A stretch of DNA of 64,000 bases from Parapristionchus giblindavisi (Eukaryota; Nematoda; Chromadorea; Rhabditida; Diplogasteridae). The translations under genes and the position numbers were made by a program. Under the pieces are notes generated by a model that saw nothing but the letters and a program-made list of their open reading frames with translations, made no database searches and was not told the DNA's origin. Below, in pieces: positions 2,772 through 61,200 of this stretch (its first letter is position 1; the number at the start of each line of letters is the position of its first letter). The stretch lies in contig CALSFV010000208.1 of assembly GCA_943737045.1 (NCBI GenBank), positions 62,001-126,000 of the forward strand, given 5' to 3'.

Positions 2772-5700
2772 TTAGAATACAGCGATTTTGTCCCTTCTGA
2801 CCCATTGGAGATCATCATCAACGCAATTCATTAGTGAGAACGACATGAATATAGCGATAGATGATAGGAAGTGCCAGACATCATGATTATCGAAAAAGTT
2901 GAATAGAATACAGTCATGGTTCAATTCACGCGAGTTAGCAGGGGTCACCTGGAAATGGAGAACCATATATGTCATACAGTCCCGCAGAATCTCCCCCTTA
3001 ACAGAAGTTTCCGGGGACACTCGGAGTGTCTCCAGGTGTCTCCTAACCCGATTTACTCTCTAGAATTATATAACGTGTTTCAAATGCGTTTATGGAGAGC
3101 CTTTTCGTCATATGCATCAAATGCACTTGACAAATAAATTTTAAATAAATTTAAAAAATGAAAAAAATGAATATTTAAAATAAAATATTCAGTCACAAAT
3201 ATGACACGCTGATACTGTGAATTGAACCAAGGAAGTAGATTACGGTATATCGCATCCGCGTCTCTCGTCCGCGCGGATGAGTTTGGACCAGTATTTTCCT
3301 TCTCTTTCACGATTATTTTTGTTGTTCATTATTGTTTCTTTGTTTATTTCTTTCTGTGCTTGTTATATATCAATTATTAATGTCCTAGACTAGCAAATTT
3401 GCTGCTGCTGACTTCCCTCCCTCACTCGAGACCTCGTTCGACTAGTTGTTCTTCCATCGCTAGTAATGTCGCATTGCAGTTTCATAGCCACATTCCGAGC
3501 GTTCACTAAGATGGGGAGGTCGTTGGCGTCACGCAACTCTCCTCCGCGGATTCTCTGGCGCGAGATACCACCGGAGTCAAGCTTCGACGTAAGTCTTGAC
3601 TATCATTAAATCTATTTTTCCAATTAATATTTAATTTATTATTTATCTTTTGACTAGGTGCTCACCAACCGTGAGTGATTTCGTATTACAGTTTCATGGC
3701 TATGTGCCCAGCGTTCGCTGACATACGGAGGTCGTCGTCGTCACGCCAATCACCGCCGCAGATTCTGGCGCTAGGGACCACCTTGCTCCACGTAAGTCCT
3801 GTCCTAAATCTTCAATCTAGTCTGTAAGTAAGTATTAAAAAGCCTTAAATGGGCCTTGTCCCATTAATATTAAGCCTTATCCCATTAACACATAAATTAT
3901 CTATTTTTCTTTCGACTAGTTGTTCACAAATCGTAAGTGATTTCGTATTGCAGTTTCGGTCGTGTGCCCATCCACTCAATTAGAAGGAGTCATTCTGCCA
4001 CCGCGAAATCGACTTCACGACTCAAGCGGATACGTAAGTCTAGACTATCAATACTTCCAACTAATATTTATATCATCTATTTATTTTACGAATTATTGTT
4101 TATCAGTCATAAATATTGTCGTATTGCAGATTGATCGTCATGATCCCTGTGGCCAATCAAGTCTGTCCTGAGTACCATTCGCCCTCTTCATCTTCTTTGG
4201 CTCCAAGAACTGATCAAGTCTCTCTAAGATGTAAGTCTGGAATATCCATAAATCTATGTTTCCTATTAAGATTTAAATTATTTATTTATTTTACGAATTA
4301 TTATTTATTTTACGGTTTATCAATCGTTAATGTTGTATTGCAGATTTATCGTCATGTGTCCCGTCGGCCACTGAGCCCCGATTGGAATCAATTCTACGCG
4401 AAGGTGAACAACGTAATTTAATAGAAGAAGGAATGGAAGATGAATAGAAGATTATTGTTTAATAAATAATGAATAATTCATAAATATCAATATAAAAGAT
4501 AAAGGATTTATCGTTTGTCTTGCAAATAAACTTGCTTATCATTGTTCATCATATCATATATTTACAACACGATAATAAACAATACGATGAAAGAAAGGAT
4601 CAGCTAGTGGTGGAGGTTACTGGCACCAACATAAAGAAGGTGGAGTGACGCGAAGATTAGCCTCCTAATCGAGCACATGACCTGCAATACAACATTAACG
4701 ATTGATAAACAATTATTCGTAAAATAAATAAATAATTTAAATCTTAATAGGAAACATAGATTTATGGATATTCCAGACTTACATCTTAGAGAGACTTGAT
4801 CAGTTCTTGGAGCCAAAGAAGATGAAGAGGGCGAATGGTACTCAGGACAGACTTGATTGGCCACAGGGATCATGACGATCAATCTGCAATACGACAATAT
4901 TTATGACTGATAAACAATAATTCGTAAAATAAATAGATGATATAAATATTAGTTGGAAGTATTGATAGTCTAGACTTACGTATCCGCTTGAGTCGTGAAG
5001 TCGATTTCGCGGTGGCAGAATGACTCCTTCTAATTGAGTGGATGGGCACACGAAATCACTTACGACTTGTGAACAACTAGTCGAAAGAAAAATAGATAAT
5101 TTATGTGTTAATGGGATAAGGCTTAATATTAATGGGACAAGGCCCATTTAAGGCTTTTTAATACTTACTTACAGACTAGATTGAAGATTTAGGACAGGAC
5201 TTACGTGGAGCAAGGTGGTCCCTAGCGCCAGAATCTGCGGCGGTGATTGGCGTGACGACGACGACCTCCGTATGTCAGCGAACGCTGGGCACATAGCCAT
5301 GAAACTGTAATACGAAATCACTCACGGTTGGTGAGCACCTAGTCAAAAGATAAATAATAAATTAAATATTAATTGGAAAAATAGATTTAATGATAGTCAA
5401 GACTTACGTCGAAGCTTGACTCCGGTGGTATCTCGCGCCAGAGAATCCGCGGAGGAGAGTTGCGTGACGCCAACGACCTCCCCATCTTAGTGAACGCTCG
5501 GAATGTGGCTATGAAACTGCAATGCGACATTACTAGCGATGGAAGAACAACTAGTCGAACGAGGTCTCGAGTGAGGGAGGGAAGTCAGCAGCAGCAAATT
5601 TGCTAGTCTAGGACATTAATAATTGATATATAACAAGCACAGAAAGAAATAAACAAAGAAACAATAATGAACAACAAAAATAATCGTGAAAGAGAAGGAA

Positions 5701-8700
5701 AATACTGGTCCAAACTCATCCGCGCGGACGAGAGACGCGGATGCGATATACCGTAATCTACTTCCTTGGTTCAATTCACAGTATCAGCGTGTCATATTTG
5801 TGACTGAATATTTTATTTTAAATATTCATTTTTTTCATTTTTTAAATTTATTTAAAATTTATTTGTCAAGTGCATTTGATGCATATGACGAAAAGGCTCT
5901 CCATAAACGCATTTGAAACACGTTATATAATTCTAGAGAGTAAATCGGGTTAGGAGACACCTGGAGACACTCCGAGTGTCCCCGGAAACTTCTGTTAAGG
6001 GGGAGATTCTGCGGGACTGTATAAGTTAACGACATGATGCTTTCGCGAATATATGTTGCTTAAAATTTGTGTACAGTAATGCAATTTTTTGATTTATGAA
6101 AAATTGTTTAAAAAATTCTGTTATTTCTACTATGCTATAGAGTATGACACTTACGCTCCAGTCGGATACGTTATGCAGGAAGAACCATCCTGCAGAGAAC
6201 CAACAAATTGCAGACAATAATAGGAAAGCGATGGCTCGAGGACGAAGCTTCTCACGATGGACAAACTGAACAAGTCATACCATCAGCTAGGTCAAAATCA
6301 TGAATCAACATCAGAAAATACCTTCATGATGATATAGTAGAGCAGATACAAGAAGAGATTGGCAATGAATGGTCCAAGAAGGAAAGATGGGAAGTCTTTC
6401 GGTCGATGAATGAGGCCTACTATGACCATTCCAAAGTTGATAACATTACCGATTATGAGAAACAAGAATCGACTCTGAAAAAAAAAAGAATTATTGGAGT
6501 GAATGATGGTGATTGAGCTCTTTCTAGGTATTAACTATTGCAATATTTTCAATCATATTACGGAACCACTATCATCTTCTCTACTTTCGCCTTTAGGAGT
6601 GAATGAAGTTATTATGATACAATATAAGCTGCTGGATATGGTATAGAATGATAACTAACTTTATAAGCAGGAATCATGCATGAACACCATCTCGAAGAGT
6701 AGAAGGCATATTGAACAGAGCGGAAGATCTCCATAGGATTGAGACGCCAAAGACCCTTTAAGGACAAATTAGAAGAAAGATCAGTGATTGGCTGATATAA
6801 TTACCTTGAAGTAGAATTCAACCGAGACAAGGAACATGGTTACGAGATACGACGTGGTAAAGAAGATCCAGAACAGCAGGGTATTCAGATACTGCAGTTA
6901 ATAAATATCAGTTTAGCATTGTGAACTGTCATTTTTGAAAAGAATAATTTATTAAGTATTATTGTTCCGTAATAGTATTTCGCTAATTCATCCTGTTATA
7001 CATAAAGTACCGTACCACTCCGAGCATAGCAATGAATATGAAGAAGGCAGAGAGTGCAAAAGCAACGTGAGCATTGGCATTGATATCTGGATGACGAAGT
7101 TGATAGATTTTGAGCATTCCAAGAAGACCAATGATATACATGAATGATGTATCTGTAATGGGGAAATGATCAGACTCCTATTAATATTCAATCAATCTTC
7201 ATACCAAATTGATAATTGCTCGATGATGGACAGATATGGTAAGAGGCAGATAGCACTCCTTCCATAACTACGGCTACTCCTATCGCATACATCAGCCCAT
7301 TGTGCTGAGGAATTCCATATTCCTGCAAAGGGGCACCAGAATAGGAATATTCAACAAATGGATGATGATTAACTCACGTTCATAAGATCGAGAGGGAACA
7401 TTTTACATAGAGATCTGTATCGCATCTCCCGTTCTTTGACCATAAGAAGGAATAGAAGACCGAGTGAGATGTATCCAATGTTGGATATGACATTGTTGAA
7501 GGCGAAGAAGACAGAGAATGGACGGGCACAACGGAAATTGTACCTGTAATATGAGGTATTTACAAAACGGACGTGTCACTAATAACAGCATTTTTTCATG
7601 AAACAATCTTAACAAGACCAGTCTGAATAATAGTATGACAGAATCGTTCCTTTCTTGCGAGTTTTTGGTTTGAATAAGATCTACTCACCAACAAAGATCG
7701 AGATTGCCCGATAGTCTGACCGTATCTTGCCAAGTCAATACGAGTTGAACAACGGGAAGACCATAGAAGAGCGCGATAGTCATTAGAGATCTGTAATGCA
7801 TGGTAATTCCAGTAAATCGTTCAATTGACATGTAACTTACACAACATATCGAGTGTATTTCTTGTCGCGTTGTTTAAATTCTTTCAGAGATAAGTCGGCC
7901 ACTGTGAGATGCAACTGAATAATATCGATCAATGATGCGCTTTATTCAACTTTGTTCAATTACATTTTGTCTCACGACGAACTTATCTCTCGAGTCATGC
8001 ATCATATCATAACTCCTCATACTGTCTGAATCCTCAACGTGATTAGATGATGATGGTTCGTTATTCAACGCCGAATACTCAAAGTTATCAGTGACGAAGG
8101 AAGGACCTGGTTCTGTAATTATATTAATTGTTATGCTCGAGTTAATCTGAATTGCGAAATCGTGCGCACACCTTGGTCATCTCCAGTTGGGTTCAATAAT
8201 AACCGTCCTTCTCTCTCAAGTGATCGTCTTTCGTATATTCCCATTGTAATCATGAAAACTACAGCGAGAACATAGATGAAAAGAAGGGCGGAGAACGTCA
8301 AAGATATAGGAAGTACGTAGTCAACAACTGAAGAGATATTAGGTTTTCCACGTTGTAATCACAATAAAATATACGTCATTTTGATACATTGTTCATAGTG
8401 ACGTCATACTTTGAAAATACTGGCCAGAATCGTTACTTTTTACTATTAAAGTAGGCATTTTCAATAATTAAGCATGTCCATTATAAAAAATACAATAATT
8501 GTTTATGTAAAAGTTGACACCGTAACTCACTATTCGGAGCAGTTTGTATCGTAACTGTGAATTTTTTCTCTCGTTCTTTGATGTAATGAGGATGAGGTGG
8601 AATGATTTCTTCCATTGTTGAACACTCATCGTCATTTGGACGAATCACAAAAATTACAAAGAATTTCTCATAGAAACGACGCTAAAACGAGAAGGATTAA

Positions 8701-57005: not shown

Positions 57006-57497
57006 CAGCCCCGCAGAATCTCCTTTCGTGCATGTGATCCCGGGGATCCCGGGGATCCCCCCGTGCTCCTCGAATTATTGTGCTTTCAATAATGAATATC
57101 AGGTGTGACAATTGTTACTATTGTTTTCCTCTTTACTTGAACTATTTCATCAAGGAAAGTTTGGAATTTTTGAAAGCTTGTCAACTAAATTGTGCTAAGA
57201 AATAGAAACGACGAAAAAGTCACTTTGAGATTGATAAAGCCGAACGGTGCGCGAGTTCTTCAATATTATTGCGCGGCATTTGCAAAAAAAAATTAATATT
57301 TTCAATATTTGTTCTCGGGATACGTAATCGATAAAATTCCAAACTTTCCTTGATAAAATAGGTCACGTAAAGAGCAAAACAATAGTAACAATTGCAACAC
57401 CTGATATTCAATATTGAAAGCACCATAATTTGAGGAGCACGGGGGGATCCCGGGGATCCCCGGGATCACATGCACGAAAGGAGATTCTGCGGGGCTG
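57006..57497. mobile_element. MITE of the CAGYCCCGCAGA family, 492 bp
   Basis: The ends CAGCCCCGCAGAATCTCC and complement are flanked by TA (57004-57005, 57498-57499). Next to the ends is a GATCCCGGGGATCC block that is palindromic by itself. Arms pair over most of the length; no coding capacity. Same ends as the 2977-6019 foldback. Confidence 0.9.
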
Positions 57498-58261: not shown

Positions 58262-61200
58262 ATGGATTCTTCTACAATTCTTAGTTTGGTGAGTTATAAT
58301 TCATTTGTAATTAGTCTAACATATACATATTGCAGAAATCCGGTGGAACGAGTCCTCTCGATTTCGTTCAGAGACTCTGTTCTCTTGACTTGAATGGAGA
58401 ACAACGAAGAACGGCTCTCGGCCAAGGTTTGATCATTATAAGTCCTCTATTTCTCGAAACTCCATTTCGATTTCAGCCTTGAATTCAATTGAGTCCGAAT
58501 ATTCCTCCCAGGCAGCGGATTTGTCCAGGAGAAAGAAGGAATTGCAAGAGACGAAGTACAAGTAAGTGTGCTGATTGGTTGATAGGGATATGATTACAGT
58601 CCCGCAGAGTCTCCCCCTTAACAAAAGATCTCCGAGAGTCTCGGAGATCTCCTGGTGTCTCCGTCCCTGCTTTGCACTGCTCGCTTTATATAACGTTTGC
58701 CAAATACGTTTTCTGAGAGCCATTTAGTGATGTGCACCCAATGACCAAGAAAAAAACATAAAAATATTTTAAATTAATTAGAAATTAATTTTAAAAATAC
58801 AACCGCGACGCATGTGTTACGTGCGTCGCGGTCGAATTCTTCCAGTTCATATTTATGATTGATTAATTTAAAAATCATTATTGATTAATTTAAAACATAT
58901 TTTTATATTTTTGTTTGTTCATTGGATGTACATCACCAAATGGTTTCCCAAAGACATAATTGGAACACGTCATATAAATCTAGCAGGGTAGGAGACACCA
59001 GGAGATCTCCGAGACACTCGGAGATCTTTTGTTAAGGGGGAGACTCTGCGGGACTGTATGTGAATATTCTATCATTGTATTGTATTGTAGGTATGAAAAC
59101 CTTGCCGAATTGGCTGAATCCATGTCTCATCTTCAGGAATCCATTGATGATCACAGGAGACAGGTTTGATTAGTTGCAGTATCATTGTTTACGGAGGATG
59201 TAGTAGACATAAATATATCCTGCAGTAGCAGATGACAAAGATTGTGAAATGAATGACTATTGAAATGTTTTTACACGATAATGACTATTTTTGTTTAGTT
59301 GAAACACAGTGAGACATCGCTTACATCGACCGGAAATGTGCTCGAGTATGATGCGGCCAAGAACAGGAGCAATAAACTTATCCAGATCATAACGGTTCGC
59401 TGTATTTCTTTGCCTTAAATATGTTGAACACAAGAACTTTAATGTTCGAGCTTCAAAGTTAGAAACGTTGGAATATAAAAACAACGGTACTTGGTATCTA
59501 TTTCGTCATCTACGATACTCACCAGTTTTCTGAGTGAATGGTATTCAGGCCCAAATGCAGTATGAGAGAGCGAAGGAAGCATTGAAGGACGCTAATGGAG
59601 AAGAACCATCAAAGAGATTGGCGTATATTGTGGACTTACAGAATGCTCATCAGACTCTGCAAATGGTGCGTATTATATATAATGTTTGTCCAATAATTGT
59701 AATTGCTATATATTTCTTATCATTTTGAAAGTAAGATTCCGTAAAATCGTACTGTTATACAAAGATATGCGATGTAGTGAAGTGTTCGAAGCGATCATGC
59801 ATTGTTTTCTCGCAGCATCTCCCGAATTCAACGGTGAATCAAGAATTGGAAGAGCTCAAGGACGGATTTCTTGCGTGGCAAGGAGCAGCTCTTGTCTTTG
59901 CCATACAACAAGCAGACTATAATAAATTACTCGACATCCAAAAAATCTATCAGAGTCTGTCTAGACAAGACGGTTAGTTACTCTTTCACTAAAGGAGAAT
60001 TATTATGGATTTATTGTTCTCTCTGTGTCACGTTATGATCGTGCGTTGGCATGATGTATCATAAATATGATCATACATTTTCGGTGCTATCACCGATTTA
60101 TTTTTATATAGTGGGTCGATGTAGAAAAATCGTTATTTTTCGCTTAAATTGTAATCTTTCATATAAAAATGAGCTTTATATAGTGGGTCGACCCTGAAAA
60201 CGAGCCGTATATAGTGGCTCAATCCTCACATTGTGAGGGTATGAAAATGTATGAATATGATGTAAAGATTCTTACCCACGACGCATAAGAAAATTATATT
60301 AAATATTGAATTGTATGAAAATATATTGTGTGCCAATGATCATGACGTGATGCAGACAGATATCCAAGATGAATGTGATAATTCGTTGTATTCTCACTAG
60401 TCACTATTCTCTCATTCAGAGTTCACATCAATATTCCGTCGAGTATGTTCATCTCGTCTCAAGGATACCGATCTATCATCGATAGATTCCATTCAATCAC
60501 TATTCGCTGTTCTGCTCAGAGAAATTGAGTACATTCTCGATCACTATCTGAGGTAGTCCAGACAATCCTCTGACTATTCTATTATCCTTGCTTGCAGTGT
60601 TATCCGTCGATTCCAAGATGAGACTGAAGCAAATGCCATCATCACGAAATCGGTAACGGAGGGTCTCGAGGTATAATAACAATTCCAGTATATTATTATG
60701 GTCTTTCTCTGTTCGTAATGGTCGTGTTTTCATCGCAGAGTAATGATTAAATTTTCCATTTCAGTCACTTAATCTATCAACCACCCTATCTTCACTGATT
60801 GGAGAACACGAAGATCCCATAATATTGTGTTCTACTCTCAAGAATATCTTCAATGACCTGAAAGAGAAGTTTAGTCAGGATTCGGGACGGGTGTTGTTCA
60901 CTGATATCATGCTAATTCTCAAGGTTGGTCTGTTATATTGTGAGAATTACCAAATATACATGTCATTGATAAAGTATCGGTGTGTTATCGGATACAACTA
61001 GTATATGGTACATTATAAGCTACCACTAATAACTAAGTTGTCATCTTTCACATTTCATCGTCTTTTCTGTGGTTCTCTTGTCGGATTAGACAGTTATTTA
61101 ACCTTACCTGTTATAGGAGAAGGCTCTAAAGAGCATGGAAGCTCCTCTGCGATCAGCTTTCACTAACATGACGCTCAATAAAGTCAACGGACTAGAATTG

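Follow-up and report, generated by a model that had tools for sequence, protein, structure and literature searches.

The window, the whole 64,000-nt stretch of Parapristionchus giblindavisi DNA that we analyzed, carries a cuticlin gene (CUT_N, E = 8e-20; CUT_C, 1.6e-9) and, at positions 2977-6019, a 3,043-bp element with TA on either side, an almost perfect palindrome whose two ends start or finish with CAGTCCCGCAGAATCTCC. Self-comparison aligns 2974-3946 with 5050-6022 over 973 nt at 100% identity, and 3960-4308 with 4705-5053 over 349 nt at 99% identity. Together with the TA on both sides, these arms strengthen the proposal made in the initial annotation that this is a palindromic transposon. 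Long arms make up most of the element, which is a trait of foldback transposons. The element contains no open reading frame (ORF) of 110 aa or more, and it is therefore non-autonomous. No Rfam family reached the threshold in the window. Elsewhere in the window, at 57006-57497 and 58597-59056, lie two short palindromic MITEs that have TA and an almost identical 18-bp end motif. The first starts like the end of a transposase-bearing relative in C307 described below (GATCCCGGGGATCCC palindrome), and the second resembles the outer arm of the window element (72% over 212 nt). When the end motif has a C at position 4, it occurs in many pairs of about 470 bp among the places listed.

Inward of its outer portion, each arm consists of exon-like blocks that alternate with intron-like spacers (Table 1). 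In the left arm, the donor is GTAAGTC in all four modules and all five acceptors end in CAG (CATTGCAG, TATTACAG and, three times, TATTGCAG), exactly where splice-like borders had been placed initially. The four spacers have a GC content of 0.22-0.33, versus 0.57, 0.60, 0.51 and 0.46 for blocks A to D. The right arm mirrors the left one, except that the acceptor of its C module is gone via a 17-nt deletion. The blocks had been described as at least four related ones plus the start of a fifth. Relatedness stands for A and B, which are 74% identical over 121 nt, the end of the preceding intron included, with an exon-only local score of z = 26.5; as exons, C and D are unrelated to A and B. As for the fifth block, its start at 4344 stands, and it is a terminal block with a polyadenylation signal, whose counterpart on the other strand has a different sequence.

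Table 1. Features of the window element (positions in the window) and, in the last four rows, arrays beside two transposases elsewhere in the genome (positions in C231 and C307).
Feature	Position	Strand	Basis or remark
TA target-site duplication, left	2975..2976	.	flanks of window and fetched loci
Outer left arm, first letters CAGTCCCGCAGAATCTCC	2977..3479	+	homology to other palindromic subfamily
Exon-like module A, 109 nt, GC 0.57	3480..3588	+	splice-like borders
Intron-like 1, 103 nt, GTAAGTC...TTACAG	3589..3691	+	homologous to introns 3, 4 and relatives' introns
Exon-like module B, 100 nt, GC 0.60	3692..3791	+	duplicate of A, z = 26.5
Intron-like 2, 162 nt	3792..3953	+	borders only; outside homology test
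Exon-like module C, 80 nt, GC 0.51	3954..4033	+	no exon similarity to A, B, D
Intron-like 3, 96 nt	4034..4129	+	homology test
Exon-like module D, 101 nt, GC 0.46	4130..4230	+	borders, homology test
Intron-like 4, 113 nt	4231..4343	+	homology test
Non-palindromic loop	4344..4681	.	in ten subfamily copies including the window's, 93-100%
Terminal exon-like block E, AATAAA at 4461	4344..4497	+	3' limit inferred
Terminal exon-like block E' of opposite arm	4590..4681	-	by eye; limit inferred; relative in L069
Mirror of module D	4783..4883	-	identical to D
Mirror of module C, acceptor deleted (17 nt)	4980..5053	-	arm comparison
Mirror of module B	5205..5304	-	identical
Mirror of module A	5408..5516	-	identical
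Outer right arm	5517..6019	-	100% to left arm
TA target-site duplication, right	6020..6021	.	flanks of window and fetched loci
C231 array	867704-871498	+	genome matches
C231 array	876630-878858	-	genome matches
C307 array	181594-183912	+	genome matches
C307 array	187680-190662	-	genome matches

The genome (251 Mb searched) contains about 20 palindromic relatives of the window element. As queries, the window array has at least 23 matches and the outer arm at least 41, the latter a lower bound from 40 scored of 110 candidates. The end motif, allowing up to one mismatch, matches 29 times in forward and 29 times in reverse orientation, versus none for a reversed-pattern control. We fetched 20 loci, and both ends are present in 18 of these and in the window; TA lies on both sides of all 19 copies, and also beside C25 and L070. 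The long inverted repeat is 98.4-100% identical in those 18 loci and in L057 up to the contig end, and C25 is palindromic at 99.9%. The initial annotation had looked to copies elsewhere for a loss of the modular structure; the eight subfamily copies that we scanned keep most modules, and every donor found by the search string in both their arms is GTAAGTC or GTAAGCC. The string search misses B in the arms of L051, L052 and L054 and D in one arm of L050, and module A was not located in the arms of L055, where it is deleted.

We rejected the idea that the whole finding is an assembly artifact, since in 17 of the 19 copies, including that in the window, the flanks on the two sides differ, with 8-17 of 40 nt in common. 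The flanks of L049 (C400) and L053 (C675) mirror each other in 40 of 40 nt, L053 and L054 (C20) have flanks in common, and L057 (C689) has the same 15 nt on its left. These copies, on which the argument does not depend, may thus be one insertion, snap-back assembly artifacts or cases of real flanking palindromes. Further places show partial likeness to these elements. L069 (C202:550600-551200) is a relic that is not palindromic and contains sequences related to exons C, D and E' and to their introns; one of its internal segments is inverted relative to the window loop, and no element end was found there at up to three mismatches. Five places (C76:112589, C290:437508 and C202:968443, 971957 and 1691816) are similar, at 71-77%, to the inner portion of the exon-intron set of L058. 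A repeat of about 147 bp, probably a nested palindromic MITE, is inserted in L073 (611-756) and in the L064 element (1784-1930), at 94% identity and at 82% in the other orientation.

Two 7,054-bp elements, L070 in C7 and another in C278, have the same ends as the window element. Between these ends, L070 has a gene for a Tc1-like DD34E transposase that seems to be divided into several exons. The DDE_3 domain (PF13358) is found in L070 (3.2e-9), L072 (9.5e-10) and L073 (1e-15), and the DD34E spacing, with 34 residues from the second D to the E, and the motifs FSDES, QDGAPAH and IEYxWxELK can be recognized by eye. The best protein match of the transposase is from the nematode Pristionchus mayeri (50% identity), which, with the cuticlin gene, speaks for a nematode host and against an insect, and a protein search identified further transposases in C231 (71% identical), C307 (65%), C155 (52%) and C212 (48%). 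The C307 element ends in TA/CAGCCCCGCAGAATCTCC and thus belongs to the same group. By its ends, its TA target and its arms, the window element is classified as a non-autonomous palindromic (foldback) member of this Tc1/mariner group. An open stretch on the minus strand of L070 (3083-3331) may stem from a host gene or another element, from which it would have been captured.

Clear arrays are present in three of the five transposase lineages examined; in C155 and C212, no such array is evident on the one side covered. In the three, the transposase is flanked by inverted, inward-facing exon-intron arrays, with units of 202, about 236 and 266 bp. In L070, a tandem-repeat tool counts 5.2 units of 202 bp in the left arm and 8.9 in the right, all facing inward, each consisting of a 104-nt exon (GC 0.69), then GTAAGTC and a 98-nt intron (GC 0.27). 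L070 has 14 GTAAGTCATC donor strings for the approximately 14 units of the tandem-repeat tool, a count that is built in because unit borders in L070, L072 and L073 were set by donor and acceptor string search; its acceptors are CAG in 11 of 14. On one side of C231, 15 units were read, with exons of 98-132 nt and introns of 100-107 nt, the opposite array being defined by genome matches, and in C307, 14 units were read, with exons of 171-175 nt, except for one of 113, and introns of 91-92 nt. Tandem repeats inside the arms, another trait of foldback elements, are strong in L070, L072 and L073. The tandem-repeat tool finds no such array in the window, where the repeats are only A/B and the introns. 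Exceptions to the AG/GT borders are three of the 14 L070 acceptors, one L064 acceptor and module C of the right arm in the window.

Apart from the A/B duplication, it is the introns, together with their splice sites, that recur in the window element. A second palindromic subfamily (L058-L067 and C25) has the outer arm in common with the window element at 82-86% identity. Under stricter alignment settings, this homology extends as far as the first acceptor (3479), and there is a second match to that subfamily in intron 1 (88% over about 67 nt); under permissive settings, alignments also cover exon A and reach about position 3652 within intron 1, with an overall identity of 79-80%. The window's exon A and the first exon of L058 show no likeness beyond shuffles (z = -0.6). 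Between the subfamilies, the exon is thus unrecognizable while the element end and the intron persist.

We then compared, pairwise and against dinucleotide-block shuffles, nine exons (A-D of the window, 1-2 of L058, and those of L070, L072 and L073) and eight introns (1, 3 and 4 of the window, 1 and 2 of L058, and those of L070, L072 and L073), with window intron 2 and block E outside the test. Of the 36 exon pairs, only A-B rises above noise, the other 35 having z-scores of -1.4 to 2.1. Window introns 1, 3 and 4 resemble one another (z = 3.8-11.5) and the L070 and L058 introns (z = 3.6-13.2); 14 of the 15 intron pairs from the window, L058 and L070 reach a z-score of at least 3.6, the exception being window intron 3 with L070 (z = 0.8). 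The L072 and L073 introns are similarly rich in AT and are unlike any other (z up to 2.6), an argument against composition alone as the source of the high intron scores. Therefore, in the related elements (window, L058 and L070), homologous introns separate unrelated exons. L072 and L073 follow the same plan with unrelated sequence, and the plan either goes back to an ancestor, with complete sequence turnover since, or arose convergently.

Exons also change faster than introns in several comparisons; in L058/L060 they outpace the element ends as well. Between L058 and L060, the exons differ by 0.166 and the introns by 0.074 (p = 2e-5, from a Fisher test that, like the others here, treats sites as independent). 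Within the L070 array, 9 of 104 exon columns are variable versus 1 of 80 intron columns (p = 0.04) after omission of an exon that lacks 11 nt and of a truncated intron, which leaves 13 of the 14 units for each; the full set of 14 gives counts of 10 of 104 and 27 of 85, the latter due to the truncated intron. In the L072 and L073 arrays, exons are likewise more variable than introns, by counts over distinct sequences only. The generalization that exons always evolve faster than introns was rejected, since the difference from introns is not significant for C25/L064 (p = 0.20), and no such difference is seen within the window element's own subfamily, where the values against L056 are 0.023 for exons and 0.030 for introns (p = 0.53). 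Exon GC is 0.46-0.69 versus intron GC of 0.21-0.36 in the window, L058, L060, L064, C25, L070, L072 and L073. Unconstrained drift would not be expected to keep this contrast in a window of 38% GC.

For the array, its orientation, its pattern of homology and its link to a transposase, the reading that we favor, with a probability of roughly 0.53, is that inward-facing arms in this Tc1/mariner group are transcribed and spliced as a non-coding RNA that was ancestrally the leader of the transposase. The arms look like long foldback arms of splice-ready exons with free sequence, a trait of the group, which suggests an undescribed spliced RNA used by these transposons; this is a reading of DNA sequence. 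A promoter in the outer ~480 bp would drive inward transcription of each arm, the units would be spliced as untranslated exons in which any sequence is tolerated as long as GC is high, and the arm RNA would end at the poly(A) signals near the center of the element. In transposase-bearing elements, the array would originally have served the transposase gene as a non-coding leader and, since all of this leader sits inside the inverted repeat, would have been copied to both arms. Arrays would grow through unequal exchange, and gene conversion would keep the two arms alike. The window copy would have lost the transposase and kept the arms, and in the palindromic copies the retained arms would produce a transcript that terminates near the center.

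The start of the transposase gene bears on the leader part of this reading. In L070, L072 and L073, a candidate first coding exon (ATGTGG, with an N-terminal pattern common to them by eye) begins 0-1 nt after an acceptor, the contexts being TTTCAG/TATG, TTTTCAG/AATG and TTATAG/ATG. This suggests that something is spliced onto that exon, so that the transposase message would undergo splicing ahead of its start codon. We identified no donor that would connect the innermost L070 unit with the ATG exon. An acceptor directly ahead of an ATG may, in nematodes, just as well be a site for trans-splicing of a spliced leader, for which leader exons upstream are not required. In that alternative, the arrays would remain separate non-coding transcripts. 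A search for the SL1 RNA family gave no match, and gave none in its 14 control genomes either. The leader part also has to contend with the arms facing inward on both sides, since only one of them can lead to the transposase in sense.

According to the main rival, the unit is repeated as a DNA element that binds transposase or has an accessory role, which has been proposed for the tandem repeats in Galileo and Tetris arms, and its likeness to splice sites is incidental. The slower-changing AT-rich "intron," which is the conserved and repeated part of the unit, fits such a repeat and to that extent counts against spliced arms. Moreover, when the outer 250 nt are compared with the unit, the best local match is better than in most shuffles for three lineages out of four (7/300 shuffles reach it for the window, 8/300 for L070 and 0/300 for L073; 50/300 do for L058), and foldback arms with tandem repeats of about 220 bp are on record (PMC4079207). 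However, these matches between outer end and unit are short, that of L073 being an AT-rich 26-nt stretch, and the AG-exon-GT plan is the same in L072 and L073 although their introns are unrelated. Where present, palindromes that lie about 30-58 nt from the end and differ per lineage are better candidates for binding sites. We consider a DNA-binding repeat rather unlikely, although it is a serious contender.

These palindromes, of 19-29 nt, are present in L070, L073/L076, L074 (C155) and the two window MITEs, with a sequence that differs in most of them, and they are candidate co-evolving transposase recognition sites. The same scan found none in the window element, L058, L060 or L064, an imperfect GACACTCGGAGTGTC being visible by eye.

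A more far-reaching proposal, which we regard as doubtful, is that the arrays are "sequence-free" exons that act, in an arms race between host and transposon, as a licence-and-escape device occurring in three or more transposase lineages whose sequences are unrelated. Splicing and composition would be kept while the exon text turns over faster than introns or ends. The mature RNA would thereby keep showing new sequence to small-RNA surveillance, and splicing would mark it as a legitimate message.

Improbable in our view is a chromatin device, in which GC-rich blocks of about 100-170 bp and AT-rich linkers of about 95 bp, recurring every 200-266 bp, would position nucleosomes on the arms. All three array-bearing transposase lineages show the alternation and a suitable unit length; nevertheless, the spacing varies from 176 to 267 bp, and nucleosome positioning predicts neither GT/AG borders nor a single orientation.

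The initial annotation had proposed that an exon was captured and then amplified in tandem, as in a Pack-type element. One tandem duplication (A/B) survives from this proposal and, with the exon-like borders and the five places that show 71-77% similarity to the inner part of the L058 units, is what speaks for it. The capture itself does not: no host source gene was identified among the matches listed for DNA queries with the window array and the L058, L070, L072 and L073 units in the 251-Mb genome, nor among those listed for a protein search with one L073 module. With the window array and the L070, L072 and L073 units, the matches listed are the transposon group and one relic, L069. Furthermore, apart from A/B, modules within one element share no exon, and several unrelated module sets would need several captures with an identical layout. 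The same architecture recurs in transposase-bearing relatives with unrelated exons, and so it looks like a trait of the transposon group and less like a captured host exon. We consider host exon capture very improbable.

An RNA-structure role, which had been raised initially as a possibility, found no support at the level of single exons when six whole ones were folded (z of -0.5 to 0.8) beside an L073 piece covering only 36 nt of a 174-nt exon. The coding potential of the modules is as low as initially proposed, when a protein was considered unlikely: exon lengths are mostly not multiples of 3 (104, 130, 98, 107, 175 and others), exons carry indels of 4, 2, 13 and 7 nt, and in the five sets to which the test was applied, L064, L072 and L073 being outside it, spliced ORFs do not exceed those of single-base shuffles of each exon (the closest is L060, with 17/300). 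On the minus strand of a 175-nt L073 variant, there is an open 58-aa stretch for an acidic, coiled-coil-like peptide with 13-residue repeats. This antisense peptide has at least 20 genome matches, which among those listed are to its own arrays only and of which 16 of 20 contain a TGA, and it matches no Pfam family. That the modules belong, or belonged until recently, to the coding sequence of a rapidly evolving cargo gene is hardly tenable and the least credible of these explanations: the blocks are GC-rich and exon-sized, and most L073 exons have 174 nt (58 codons), some being open in frame on either strand, but the lengths and indels above break the frame, spliced ORFs are like shuffles, and the L073 peptide has neither a Pfam match nor an intact frame in most of its listed matches.

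If the arms are spliced, as in the reading that we favor, a group of cut-and-paste transposons would have built multi-exon non-coding genes into the very ends that it needs for mobility. Introns would be conserved and exons disposable, which is the reverse of normal genes. Such elements would offer a natural system for separating what splicing needs from what exon sequence encodes, and a way to test whether splicing shields transposon RNA from small-RNA silencing.

We found no exon-intron arrays in transposon arms in the literature searched, by title or abstract. Introners are defined as homologous introns between unrelated exons, and in this they are like the introns of the window element, L058 and L070. 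Many introner families have terminal inverted repeats or target-site duplications (PMC9860276). They differ in that introns of the window group are seen in the transposon group and a relic, with no host gene recognized among the matches listed at the sensitivity of BLAST, the five places with 71-77% identity standing besides. Among nematode DNA transposons, the Tc4 and Tc6 foldback elements of Caenorhabditis elegans are almost wholly palindromic, and we know of no exon-intron arrays in their arms. Tm1 of Meloidogyne (Mutator/Foldback) is also a nematode element with composite foldback-like arms, and the transposase gene of Tm1-A has multiple exons, but its repeats are of about 14 bp and its target duplications of 9 bp (PMC3169594). 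Mcmar, a further nematode element with composite foldback-like arms, is a Tc1/mariner element, like the window group, and has 355-bp arms of direct repeats and palindromes; the portion of PMC3169594 covering Tm1 and Mcmar mentions no exon-intron units. Tandem repeats in arms are thus already known from Tetris, Galileo and Tm1, and in the source texts available none is reported with splice sites; the words "splice" and "intron" have no occurrence in the text on Tetris in PMC4079207. Tetris, or DAIBAM, is a foldback element of Drosophila virilis with arms of up to 1,735 bp and tandem repeats of about 220 bp. Like the window group, Tetris and Galileo have long arms with an outer domain, a variable number of tandem repeats and a variable middle, as described in that text. 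According to the same source, the Tetris repeats differ in being about 70% AT, its transposase was not found, and that of Galileo has a THAP domain; the window group, in contrast, combines a Tc1-like transposase and a TA target with units of a GC-rich exon and an AT-rich intron.
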